Made by a program: the position numbers and the translations under genes. Below, one piece after another: positions 22,847 to 39,799 of a stretch of 64,000 nt of DNA; position 1 is the stretch's first letter, and every line of letters starts with the position of its first letter. This DNA is from Bacteroidota bacterium (GTDB taxonomy: Bacteria; Bacteroidota; Ignavibacteria; Palsa-1295). The stretch lies in contig JAJPIO010000007.1 in NCBI GenBank assembly GCA_021324735.1, positions 62,001 through 126,000 on the forward strand. The letters are read 5' to 3'. The notes below the pieces were generated by a model, which was not told the origin of the DNA, made no database searches, and was given only the letters and a program-made list of their open reading frames with translations.

Positions 22847-23509
22847 TTAAAACGTCTCGAACTCAGAAAAAAGCTCGCGAGCGGCTTTGCCTTCCTGAAG
22901 TCCGGTGGCTGTCTGCCGTTCTCCTTCGATCTTTTTCATTAGTTCGATGTATACTTGTTTGAAATGTTCCTGTGGGATCACGATGACGCCATTGGCATCG
23001 CCAAAGAGAACATCGTTGGGTCGAATCGTGACACCACCTATATCGACCGTAGTATTGTATTCTGCCATATAACCTCGCCGGCGAATATCCTTTATACATC
23101 GGTAAGTACCGAATACTGGAAAGCCAAGCATGTCGATCTGTTCGAAATCGCGGATGCCGCCGTTTACAACAGCCGCAACTGCCCCCCGCGCTTTCGCACG
23201 TGTGGACATCAATCCGCCCCACAGCGCCGCGTCAATATCGGCATCCGCTGCTACAACGACGAACGAATGTTTGGGAATAGAATCGACCATTTCAAGCAGC
23301 TTCGTTATTTCTACATACTCGCTGGTAGGAATAACCCGACACGGGTACGCCAGCCCTACGACTTTAAGTGTCGGATCGAACGGAATGCTTTGTATCTCAT
23401 GCGGCAACACATGTGAAGCAATTCCAAGCCGGTCCATTACATCGCTTACGAGCGGCGTAAAGAACTGATCAAAAACGGATAGTTGAGAGTGGATAACGGA
23501 TAGTGACAT
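22847..23509 (-). CDS. RraA / HMG-CHA aldolase-like protein
   Basis: 220 residues. LMSTRAKARGAVAAVVNGG followed by IRD is the RraA-family core, where the Arg-Asp pair and nearby Gly-rich loops bind Mg and the oxo-acid in HMG/CHA aldolases. In sugar operons such proteins are usually lyases or decarboxylases acting on oxo-acids rather than RNase E regulators. The first about 12 residues (MSLSVIHSQLSV) are encoded by a heptad repeat array rather than family sequence. Family homology starts near FDQFFTPLVSDVMDRLG, so the insertion appears to have supplied or extended the start. The next gene upstream is the four-helix-bundle gene. Confidence 0.85.
   Translation of the reverse strand: MSLSVIHSQLSVFDQFFTPLVSDVMDRLGIASHVLPHEIQSIPFDPTLKVVGLAYPCRVIPTSEYVEITKLLEMVDSIPKHSFVVVAADADIDAALWGGLMSTRAKARGAVAAVVNGGIRDFEQIDMLGFPVFGTYRCIKDIRRRGYMAEYNTTVDIGGVTIRPNDVLFGDANGVIVIPQEHFKQVYIELMKKIEGERQTATGLQEGKAARELFSEFETF
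23478..23505. repeat. Heptad array, left arm of a 4HB-carrying inverted pair
   Basis: Four consecutive 7-mers (GGATAGT, TGAGAGT and then two more of the same type) with exact 7-bp phase. Bases 23493-23507 are a perfect 15-bp inverted repeat of 23979-23993. The array encodes the N-terminus of the RraA-like protein on the minus strand. Confidence 0.85.
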
Positions 23510-23525
23510 TCTTTACCTTCTCGCT

Positions 23526-23885
23526 TTAAGAGCCTTTGTTTGCTTTGGCCGTTTTTATCGAAGCTGTAAGCATCTTTATTAATTCTTCACAGTCCGCTAT
23601 GAGGGAATTGGCGAGCCCCTCCTCCAGAATACAACCGTCTTTGAAGAGCAGCAGCCAATAATCGGTTTCATAGGCTTCCTTATGGGCGATTCCTAGCTTG
23701 TGAATAAAGTCTGATCGTGATTCAGCTTGCGCCGCTTCCCACACGTAAGCGCCGATCGAAGTCCCAGATCGATAGACCTGCTTTCCTAGCGTGTAGTCGT
23801 GTTTGACCTCGATGAGATGTTGATGTAGTTTGAGAATCCGTAGTGCAAATTTGAAGCTTTTACTTTTTAGGATGCTTTCAGCCAT
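23526..23885 (-). CDS. Four-helix-bundle protein (23S rRNA IVS / S23 type)
   Basis: 119 residues, almost all helical. KSFKFALRILKLHQHL, YTLGKQVYRSGTSIGAYVWEAAQAESRSDFIHKLGIAHKEA and YETDYWLLL match the small basic four-helix-bundle family encoded inside 23S rRNA intervening sequences, related in fold to Avd of diversity-generating retroelements. Biochemical function is unknown for the family. It has no role in uronate metabolism yet sits between kduI and the RraA-like gene, enclosed by inverted heptad arrays. This suggests that it arrived as cargo of an insertion. The ATG at 23885 lies inside the last codons of a 16-codon upstream frame with an ideal Shine-Dalgarno. Confidence 0.85.
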   Translation of the reverse strand: MAESILKSKSFKFALRILKLHQHLIEVKHDYTLGKQVYRSGTSIGAYVWEAAQAESRSDFIHKLGIAHKEAYETDYWLLLFKDGCILEEGLANSLIADCEELIKMLTASIKTAKANKGS

Positions 23886-23928
23886 CGTAGTCCCAATTTG
23901 TGAGTTTAGAATTCTCCGTTGTTGCCAT
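23878..23928 (-). CDS. 16-codon leader ORF overlapping the four-helix-bundle gene
   Basis: An ATG at 23928 is preceded by CGGAGGA at ideal spacing (six bases), one of the best Shine-Dalgarno sites in the window. The frame encodes MATTENSKLTNWDYDG and its TGA overlaps the ATGGCTGA start region of the four-helix-bundle gene in another frame. Either this couples translation of the downstream gene, or it is the original N-terminus of that protein split off by a frameshift. Confidence 0.45.
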   Translation of the reverse strand: MATTENSKLTNWDYDG

Positions 23929-23958
23929 CTTATTCCTCCGGTCTAAACTATCACGCTC

Positions 23959-23993
23959 CTCTATCCACTATCCTCTATTCACTATCCGTTATC
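23959..23993. repeat. Heptad array, right arm of the 4HB-carrying inverted pair
   Basis: Five consecutive 7-mers (CTCTATC, CACTATC and three more), complementary in type to the array at 23478-23505. The last two provide the perfect 15-bp inverted repeat. The stop codon of kduI (TAA on the minus strand, 23989-23991) lies inside the array. Confidence 0.85.
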
Positions 23994-24783
23994 GTAGCCC
24001 TGTGGGCATTGATTCGAAACCCTTCTGTACGTTTACATTCGCGAGCGTACGCCATGTATCATCCTCGAGCGAGCACAGGATCCAGCAGAAGTTGATAGGA
24101 TAGCCCGGCGCAGCAACGTTCGGATGATAACCTTCCACGATCGTTACAGCATCATTCTCATAGACTGGTTGGACAAATTCCGGTTTCTCCAGATTTGAGT
24201 AAATGAATTGCGTCCCAAATCCTGGTCGCGGCATATCAAAAAATAGATAAAGCTCTTCGCGAGTGGCAGCATGTTCGTGCGGCGGCCAGGAAGTCCAGTT
24301 GCCGGGTTTGGACATCGTCACGCCCATGAGCAATCGTGATCCTTCCACGTTCTCGGCCAGAACTTTATGGATGTCACGATAATACGGCTCAGCGCCGACT
24401 CGAAGCGTCAACGAATCACTATGTTCTACCTCTTCCTTAAAACTTACGAAACGCGAGGGATGATGTTTTCCAGTGGGCGCTGACCCTTCAACGATATCAA
24501 CATAGTTATCCGTCTCGATGTGAAATGTTTGTCCACGCCTTATATAGACGCCATCGAAACGATTAAGCTCGTATTCCGCAGCACTTGCATGGATCTTCGC
24601 TTTGCCATGCAAGCAAAGCAGTGTTGTCTCGCGGCCTTCGTTGCGAGCTGTCACGCTGGGCATTTCCTTATCGAGAATAATACGACCAGCATGGATCGCC
24701 TTGAACGGAGAAGTCTCCGGTGTGATCGTAATATTCCGACCTTTGAGCGCTGCCGTATTTCGAAAAAGCCAATTACTACTCAT
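23989..24783 (-). CDS. kduI: KduI/IolB-family uronate isomerase
   Basis: 264 residues in a double-cupin fold. TSWPPHEHA followed by REELYLFFD carries the metal-binding His, His and Glu, and ENDAVTIVEGYHPNVAAPGYP carries the last His. The overall match is to IolB (5-deoxy-glucuronate isomerase) and KduI-type proteins. Here the neighbours are KduD, Eda and GH105, not inositol genes, so isomerisation of 5-keto-4-deoxyuronate to 2,5-diketo-3-deoxygluconate (the KduI reaction) is the more likely role. The stop codon lies in the right heptad array, so its last residues may have been altered by the insertion. Confidence 0.8.
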   Translation of the reverse strand: MSSNWLFRNTAALKGRNITITPETSPFKAIHAGRIILDKEMPSVTARNEGRETTLLCLHGKAKIHASAAEYELNRFDGVYIRRGQTFHIETDNYVDIVEGSAPTGKHHPSRFVSFKEEVEHSDSLTLRVGAEPYYRDIHKVLAENVEGSRLLMGVTMSKPGNWTSWPPHEHAATREELYLFFDMPRPGFGTQFIYSNLEKPEFVQPVYENDAVTIVEGYHPNVAAPGYPINFCWILCSLEDDTWRTLANVNVQKGFESMPTGLR

Positions 24784-37918: not shown

Positions 37919-37920
37919 AG

Positions 37921-37955
37921 TAGTTCTGAGTCCTGAGTGCTAAGTTCTAAGTAAT
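37921..37955. repeat. Heptad array, left arm, rpoA-rplQ spacer
   Basis: Five 7-mers in phase (TAGTTCT, GAGTCCT and three alike) directly before the rplQ start. AGTGCTAAGT (37936-37945) is complementary to 38006-38015, enclosing a 32-bp spacer between the arrays. Confidence 0.8.
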
Positions 37956-37987
37956 ATTTATCGCTAAGTCAAGTGCAGTGCGTACAT

Positions 37988-38015
37988 AGCACGTAGCACT
38001 GTAGCACTTAGCACT
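37988..38015. repeat. Heptad array, right arm, rpoA-rplQ spacer
   Basis: Four 7-mers (AGCACGT, AGCACTG and two TAGCACT copies), complementary in type to 37921-37955. It ends one base before the rpoA stop codon at 38017. Confidence 0.8.
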
Positions 38016-38016
38016 G

Positions 38017-39003
38017 TTATGCAGTTGCTGCTGGCTCCATGTAGCGGTCGACGTCCATACCGAACGACAGGCCGAGCGAATCGACGATCTTACCAAGCTC
38101 GTCGAGCGACTTACGTCCGAAGTTACGGAAGGTAAGAAGATCGCGCTCATCGCGGCGAACGAGTTCGCCGATCGTCTTGATATTCGCGGCACGCAGGCAA
38201 TTCTGCGAGCGAACCGAAAGATGCAGTGTATCGACCGGCGTTGAAAGGATCTGGCGAATGCGCTCCGTCTCGCTATCAGCGATCGGTCGGCGCTCTTCCT
38301 CTTCTTCAACACCACCAAAACGGACGAAGAGGTTAACGTGATCGCGAAGAATGCGACCAGCGATCGTTACTGCTTCTTCCGGTGTGACCGAACCATCGGT
38401 CTCCACTTCAAGGATCAGACGCTCATAGTCGGTCTTCTGTCCAACGCGTGTCGGCTCGACGATGTAGCGGACGTTCACGATCGGCGTATAGATCGAGTCG
38501 ATCGCGATCGTACCGATCGGTGCATCGAGCGACTTGTTCTCATCGGCCGGCACGTAGCCACGGCCATGACCAACGCGAAGCTCCATCTGCACGTGAGCAC
38601 CGTTCGACATCGTAAAGAGGTGATGATCCGGATTCAGGATCTCCACTTCCGCAGCACCTTGCTGGAGGTCACCAGCTTTGAATTCCTTCGGTCCCTTGGC
38701 ATCGATAAGGATGCGCGTCGAGGCGGACTGCTCCGCACGCAGGCGGACGCCCTTCAAATTCAAAATGATCTCGGCCACGTCTTCCACGACGCCTTTGATG
38801 GTCGAGAATTCGTGGAGCACGCCTTCGAACCGGACGTTGGTAAACGCAGTACCCGGAATCGAGGAGAGGAGCACGCGGCGCATCGAATTGCCGAGTGTCG
38901 TTCCATACCCTTCTTCGAGCGGCGAGGCGATAAACCGGCCGAATGTATTGGACCGTGATGACTCTTCGAGTTCGATCCGGTCAGGCATGTGTAGGTTTGT
39001 CAT
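38017..39003 (-). CDS. rpoA: DNA-directed RNA polymerase subunit alpha
   Basis: 328 residues. The N-terminal dimerisation domain has FGRFIASPLEEGYGTTLGNSMRRVLLSSIPGTAF and GVVEDVAEIILNLKGVRL. The C-terminal domain has LHLSVRSQNCLRAANIKTIGELVRRDERDLLTFRNFGRKSLDEL, the helix-hairpin-helix region contacting UP elements and activators. Length is normal. It lies between rpsD and rplQ as in most bacteria. Confidence 0.97.
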   Translation of the reverse strand: MTNLHMPDRIELEESSRSNTFGRFIASPLEEGYGTTLGNSMRRVLLSSIPGTAFTNVRFEGVLHEFSTIKGVVEDVAEIILNLKGVRLRAEQSASTRILIDAKGPKEFKAGDLQQGAAEVEILNPDHHLFTMSNGAHVQMELRVGHGRGYVPADENKSLDAPIGTIAIDSIYTPIVNVRYIVEPTRVGQKTDYERLILEVETDGSVTPEEAVTIAGRILRDHVNLFVRFGGVEEEEERRPIADSETERIRQILSTPVDTLHLSVRSQNCLRAANIKTIGELVRRDERDLLTFRNFGRKSLDELGKIVDSLGLSFGMDVDRYMEPAATA

Positions 39004-39026
39004 TTCTTCTTCGGGCTCCTTGGTTA

Positions 39027-39061
39027 GTGCTTAGTCCTAAAGTGCTGAGTGCTGAGTATAA
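39027..39061. repeat. Heptad array, left arm, rpsD-rpoA spacer
   Basis: Five 7-mers in phase, with AGTGCTG twice in a row. AGTGCTGAG (39041-39049) is complementary to 39093-39101 in the partner array. The spacer between the arms is only 24 bp. Confidence 0.85.
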
Positions 39062-39085
39062 TCGTTGTACAATTACGTCTCACGG

Positions 39086-39123
39086 CTAAGAGCTCAGCAC
39101 TTAGCACTGAGCACTTAGCACTT
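39086..39123. repeat. Heptad array, right arm, rpsD-rpoA spacer
   Basis: Five 7-mers (CTAAGAG, CTCAGCA and three alike, with CTTAGCA twice) complementary to the array at 39027-39061. A long imperfect hairpin could form in the operon mRNA between rpsD and rpoA. Confidence 0.85.
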
Positions 39124-39764: not shown

Positions 39765-39799
39765 TAACAATTAGTAATTAAGAATGAAGAATTAAGAGT
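39765..39799. repeat. Heptad array, left arm, rpsK-rpsD spacer
   Basis: Five 7-mers (TAACAAT, TAGTAAT and three alike) begin two bases upstream of the rpsD ATG, replacing any ribosome-binding site. Confidence 0.8.

Follow-up and report, generated by a model that had tools for sequence, protein, structure and literature searches.

A PF05635 gene between inverted seven-nucleotide arrays at a kduI-rraA junction, probably a member of a widespread class of minimal mobile elements

The insert between kduI and rraA

The window analysed here is a 64,000-nucleotide stretch of a contig from a Bacteroidota bacterium (Ignavibacteria; Palsa-1295), in which a short gene lies between the genes for KduI and an RraA-like protein, both part of a sugar-acid operon (Table 1). 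The product of this gene matches both PF05635 (E=4.5e-23; 81.9 bits against a curated cut-off of 33.8) and TIGR02436 (E=2.5e-27; 95.3 bits against a cut-off of 24). Its structure was predicted with a pLDDT of 95.2, and the model matches the solved PF05635 structures 2rld (TM up to 0.90/0.95) and 2gsc (0.70-0.82), both of which hold five chains per entry. No transposase is encoded in the insert, where the PF05635 gene is the only ORF of at least 80 aa, and positions 20000-42000 of the window yielded no Rfam matches.

Table 1. Features of the kduI-rraA insert and of two gene-less hairpins, in window positions
Feature	Positions	Strand	Basis or remark
PF05635 / TIGR02436 four-helix-bundle gene, 119 aa	23526-23885	minus	profile matches and predicted structure
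KduI gene	23989-24783	minus	ORFs and profile search
RraA-like gene	22847-23509	minus	ORFs and profile search
rraA-side heptad arm	23474-23506	minus	part 23474-23503 pairs with 23961-23990
kduI-side heptad arm, TATCCNC units	23957-23993	plus	paired part 23961-23990
rraA start codon (23507-23509) and Shine-Dalgarno-like GAGAAGG (23516-23522)	23507-23522	minus	supplied by the insert
kduI stop codon, overlapping the arm end	23989-23991	minus	sequence and ORFs
Whole insert, ~517 bp	23474-23990	none	repeat search; exact ends deduced
RAGTNCT-type heptad hairpin lacking a gene, on one side of an rpoA-like gene	37920-38018		inverted-repeat score 15.7
RAGTNCT-type heptad hairpin lacking a gene, on the opposite side of the rpoA-like gene	39020-39123		inverted-repeat score 18.7

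Repeat search identified 30-nt inverted arms that are 80% complementary, TRF reported an array of period 7/14 at 23957-23987, and AACGGATAG is found at both ends of the insert when each is read inward. A sequence-only reading of this DNA had described such heptad arrays around the gene, together with a perfect 15-bp inverted repeat. The 15-bp pair exists and its right arm was correctly placed at 23979-23993, but the left arm lies at 23492-23506, one base from where it had been put. Because the 30-nt and 15-bp pairings are offset by 21 nt, or three heptads, the 15-bp match represents the same heptads in a shifted register. The same reading had both gene ends lying in array sequence, and indeed the kduI stop codon overlaps the right arm while the rraA ATG abuts the left. 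The left arm codes for residues 2-12 of RraA (SLSVIHSQLSV), codons that are absent from relatives. Since the rraA start and Shine-Dalgarno-like sequence come from the insert and codons 2-12 from its arm, cutting of the stem would damage rraA.

Such arrays are not a feature of shuffled DNA. Strong period-7 arrays occurred nine times in 400 kb of contig 15 of the window genome and not once in a Markov-shuffled copy, and shuffled sequence held no inverted repeats as strong as the window arms. Chance co-location of the gene with common arrays was ruled out by shuffled-sequence and control-window comparisons.

Filled and empty sites

Insertion of an element at this gene junction had been proposed from the sequence, and comparison with relatives agrees. 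In ten relatives whose KduI is 69-80% identical to the window copy, kduI and rraA are adjacent without a PF05635 gene (gaps of -4 to 115 nt) and rraA starts directly at the kduI end; an eleventh (G004) has no rraA beside kduI and was left out of this count. Adjacency of kduD and kduI is conserved across the family. We also looked in this operon of relatives for the four-helix-bundle gene without inverted repeats, and did not find it. Thus, the site was filled in the lineage of the window genome, the bacterial relatives being too diverged to fix the exact ends of the insert.

The kduI-rraA junction of one congener holds a different, gene-less inverted repeat of the GGATTACGC type. Similarly, the dnaB-gmk junction is occupied by an element with a gene in the window genome and by a heptad hairpin lacking one in a congener, while further congeners have other hairpins there. 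The occupancy of these two junctions across congeners indicates that hairpin elements use gene junctions repeatedly in the genus. The hairpin at dnaB-gmk in congener L108, CATTGCGAG...CTCGCAATG, is of a third repeat kind.

The best-resolved insertion is viral. In three viral contigs, a decoration gene like lambda D is separated from an E-like capsid gene by a 418-bp element; the element is 96.4-98.1% identical and its 1-kb flanks are 78-90% identical. Seven more contigs that share this gene start were aligned at the site: in six the two genes are directly adjacent, without the element, whereas the sequence of the seventh (L312) departs from the others at the start of the gene and carries no information on the site. 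L319 matches the empty junction with a more diverged flank, and L311 (empty) is 97% identical to L280 (filled) over 400 bp of the right flank. No target-site duplication is visible at this site, the element carries no recombinase, and in no genome did we find near-identical full copies at several places, all of which count against a mobile-element reading. Local recombination instead of transposition could account for the shared phage site. A search for a second viral empty site was negative, as were the Riemerella records. Transposition between two Calothrix plasmids was considered and set aside as uninformative, since their annotated gene orders agree well beyond the element.

PF05635 loci and gene-less hairpins

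The sequence-only reading had asked for other heptad-flanked genes of this family in the genome, and these are present: all four strong PF05635 genes of the window genome lie between inverted short-repeat arms, each arm type being a different sequence, and two weak PF05635 matches lack inverted arms. As controls we took windows of the same loci at a distance of 1.2-1.5 kb, and their 95th percentile gave an inverted-repeat score threshold of 14.4, which lets ~5% of controls through. At the family level, 24 of 26 PF05635 loci are over this threshold. We extended the comparison across phyla with the best 80 named loci matching one protein subtype, 75 of them testable; the median score was 19.8 against 10.05 in controls, with 60 of the 75 exceeding the control 95th percentile and 51 the control maximum. 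Viral loci from IMG/VR reached the threshold in 22 of 27 cases, while INPHARED phages gave no matches. When entries of many phyla were pooled with those of plasmids and IMG/VR viral contigs, 152 of 187 were over the threshold, counts that are partly non-independent because the pool includes duplicate fetches of one gene and near-identical contigs. The expectation that an IVS-like element in a protein operon would be unusual was not supported, as most PF05635 genes examined share the anatomy. The roughly one fifth of entries below the threshold counts against the mobile-element reading.

Arms of the passing entries most often have a best period of 7 (129 of 152), followed by 8 (18). Their composition is strand-polar: read inward, the arms of the pooled entries are 34% G and 12% C, and AGT occurs 616 times versus 49 for ACT. 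Heptad similarity also rises with protein identity (Mantel r=0.217, against a maximum of 0.092 in 500 permutations), from a mean of 0.47 at <20% protein identity to 0.88 at >80%. For example, the window protein is 71% identical to that of relative G001, and both carry the GGATAGT heptad at different sites. Vertical descent of the whole element would account for this co-inheritance as well as recognition would. Identity of arms in register over shifted registers was tried as a further measure and set aside, being biased by the choice of the best alignment.

Heptad hairpins also occur without the gene. Two flank a gene in the window (Table 1) whose rpoA-like identity comes from reading of the sequence, and the heptad of the window insert recurs without a gene at other sites of the window genome and in congeners. 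Heptad hairpins are also present in genomes without the matching gene type, which counts against the mobile-element reading; the gene-less repeats of a genome match its genes in type only in part, not strictly. A single array, AATTAGTAATTAAGAATGAAGAATTAA, at window positions 39769-39797 differs little from the arm that the dnaB-gmk element has in the window genome. Beside tRNA-Gln and prs (L119, L120, L122-L124), a PF05635 element is common to several congeners and decaying in three.

Other genes in these genomes are similarly enclosed. GxxExxY (PF13366) genes (L077-L104; G000 contig 15:175182-175745) have inverted arrays on both sides. The repeats are of 8-11 nt and of the CACAGAG or GGATTACGC type, and a score of 14.4 or more is reached by 18 of the 24 loci that are not truncated. 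On contig 15 of the window genome (257084-257615), a GGATTACG-type inverted-repeat element encloses a GNAT acetyltransferase ORF.

Explanations for the insert

We give a probability of about 0.7 to the reading that the window insert belongs to a widespread class of very small mobile elements, with the 23S rRNA IVSs as its known case. It is on balance probable, too, that most PF05635 genes of bacteria and phages are the sole gene of one mobile-element class with inverted strand-polar 7-nt arrays. The rRNA IVSs would then be members that landed in rRNA, many dispersed heptamer hairpins of several phyla would be gene-less derivatives, and GxxExxY (PF13366) would be a sister class with 8-11-nt repeats. 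The unit consists of one PF05635 gene between inverted tandem 7-nt arms, G-rich and C-poor from the outside inward. One such unit inserted at the kduI-rraA junction after the lineage split from its relatives, and now provides a new RraA start. In favour of the reading are the filled and empty sites, the anatomy shared across the class, the link of repeat type to protein type, a unit better conserved than its flanks that phage-like contigs have gained or lost, purifying selection on the protein, and arms found apart from the gene. The protein, probably a pentamer structurally like Avd, may bind the arms once these have folded, in RNA or in single-stranded DNA, and may promote the spread of the element. 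The host might tolerate it owing to its position at gene junctions or, in rRNA, to a stem that is cut out by RNase III.

It is unlikely that the arms are ordinary intergenic slippage repeats, made complementary by template switching (quasi-palindrome correction), with the gene merely resident. The prs locus speaks for slippage: orthologous arms differ between species and match within each, even where the gene carries in-frame stops or is deleted, so arm complementarity is kept or restored without an intact gene. Gene-less heptad hairpins are common in the genus, and Coxiella strains vary in heptamer copy number (PMC4990558), as slippage would also have it. Yet slippage leaves unexplained why inverted arms of the same polarity stand on both sides of PF05635 genes in several phyla and in viral contigs, and why repeat type tracks protein type. 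Nor does it explain why an irregular arm pair should be repeated: the 30-bp arms of the dnaB-gmk element (L002), which are irregular, are present a second time in the same genome, around unrelated DNA at contig 15:234482-234770. GxxExxY genes of the same genomes, moreover, carry another repeat type.

We consider it very unlikely that the operon has domesticated the insert as a module for RNA processing or regulation, in which the stem would set mRNA stability or translational coupling and the protein would regulate the stem. The arms do pair in the predicted RNA (MFE -143.3 kcal/mol, z -2.1), the gene is on the strand of the operon with 16 nt between its end and the rraA start, and in relatives the protein is under purifying selection (dN/dS of 0.02-0.12 where measurable). 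However, none of the relatives examined has the insert in this operon, similar elements lie at unrelated junctions, and the gene runs antisense to the capsid operon where it occurs in phage-like contigs. Cutting of the stem would here take away the rraA start.

We consider it extremely unlikely that the element depends as a satellite on a reverse-transcriptase system, whether like a DGR or like a group II intron, for which the Avd-like protein would be the accessory factor: the fold matches, at greater distance, Avd (4dwl, TM 0.75/0.82) and Avd in DGR particles (8ub7, 8ub8), and one viral homologue has a weak Avd profile match, but that match is under the curated cut-off, the Avd profile (NCBIfam DivGenRetAVD) does not match the window protein, and RVT_1 is absent from 47 of the 61 genomes searched, including the window genome, a one-contig genome with 7 PF05635 matches and a genome with 15. 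Dependence on a reverse transcriptase in cis was thus unsupported. DGR Avd shares the four-helix-bundle fold with the window protein, but the curated cut-off places it in a separate family.

The mobile-element reading gains from the rRNA IVSs, whose kinship with the insert had been suspected from the sequence and holds in protein family, type of stem and repeats. The 23S rRNA IVSs with an S23p/PF05635 gene, such as that of Coxiella burnetii (PMC4990558), are likewise ~0.4-0.5 kb long, with a stem enclosing the gene and heptameric repeats in the arms, and the window gene, as there, lies in the sense of the host transcript. The 30-nt arms, at 80%, compare with the ~28-bp terminal inverted repeats of IVSs. 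In Coxiella burnetii, the 23S rRNA IVS carries strain-variable heptameric repeats at the stem arm cut by RNase III, and its excision by this enzyme was shown in vitro (PMC4990558). IVSs are reported to be excised by RNase III, and a transposon origin has been proposed (PMC4990558). Unlike them, the window insert lies at a protein-gene junction, and hence outside 23S rRNA, where removal by RNase III would damage rraA.

Xanthomonas and Nostoc have G-rich heptameric repeats (PMC4692102) and Beggiatoaceae have TAACTGA repeats (PMC4679880), which resemble the arms in being 7-nt intergenic arrays. Xanthomonas has ~70 convergent inverted pairs per genome, with the inward polarity of PF05635 arms (PMC4692102). 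In contrast to the arms, text searches of both papers did not tie these repeats to a PF05635 gene, and the Xanthomonas heptamers are described as generally untied to mobile elements (PMC4692102). Our literature search, which covered few subscription journals, found no paper joining heptamer inverted pairs to a PF05635 gene. MITEs and REP/BIME-type hairpins are likewise short units with inverted repeats that are scattered over gene junctions and include copies without a gene. They differ in that PF05635 arms are tandem 7-nt arrays whose sequence varies from element to element, and PF05635 elements have no known transposase and no target-site duplication was seen.

If the mobile-element reading is true, rRNA IVSs, whose origin has been open for decades, fall within a broad class of minimal mobile elements, and the heptamer repeats that were reported independently from Xanthomonas, Nostoc and Beggiatoa have a probable source. 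PF05635, a common protein family of unknown function, would gain a testable role, and the mode of movement, with one small protein, a tandem-repeat hairpin and no recombinase, would become testable.

Lastly, on Planktothrix plasmids (L305-L307), a PF05635 element separates a DISARM drmD-like gene from a methyltransferase gene.
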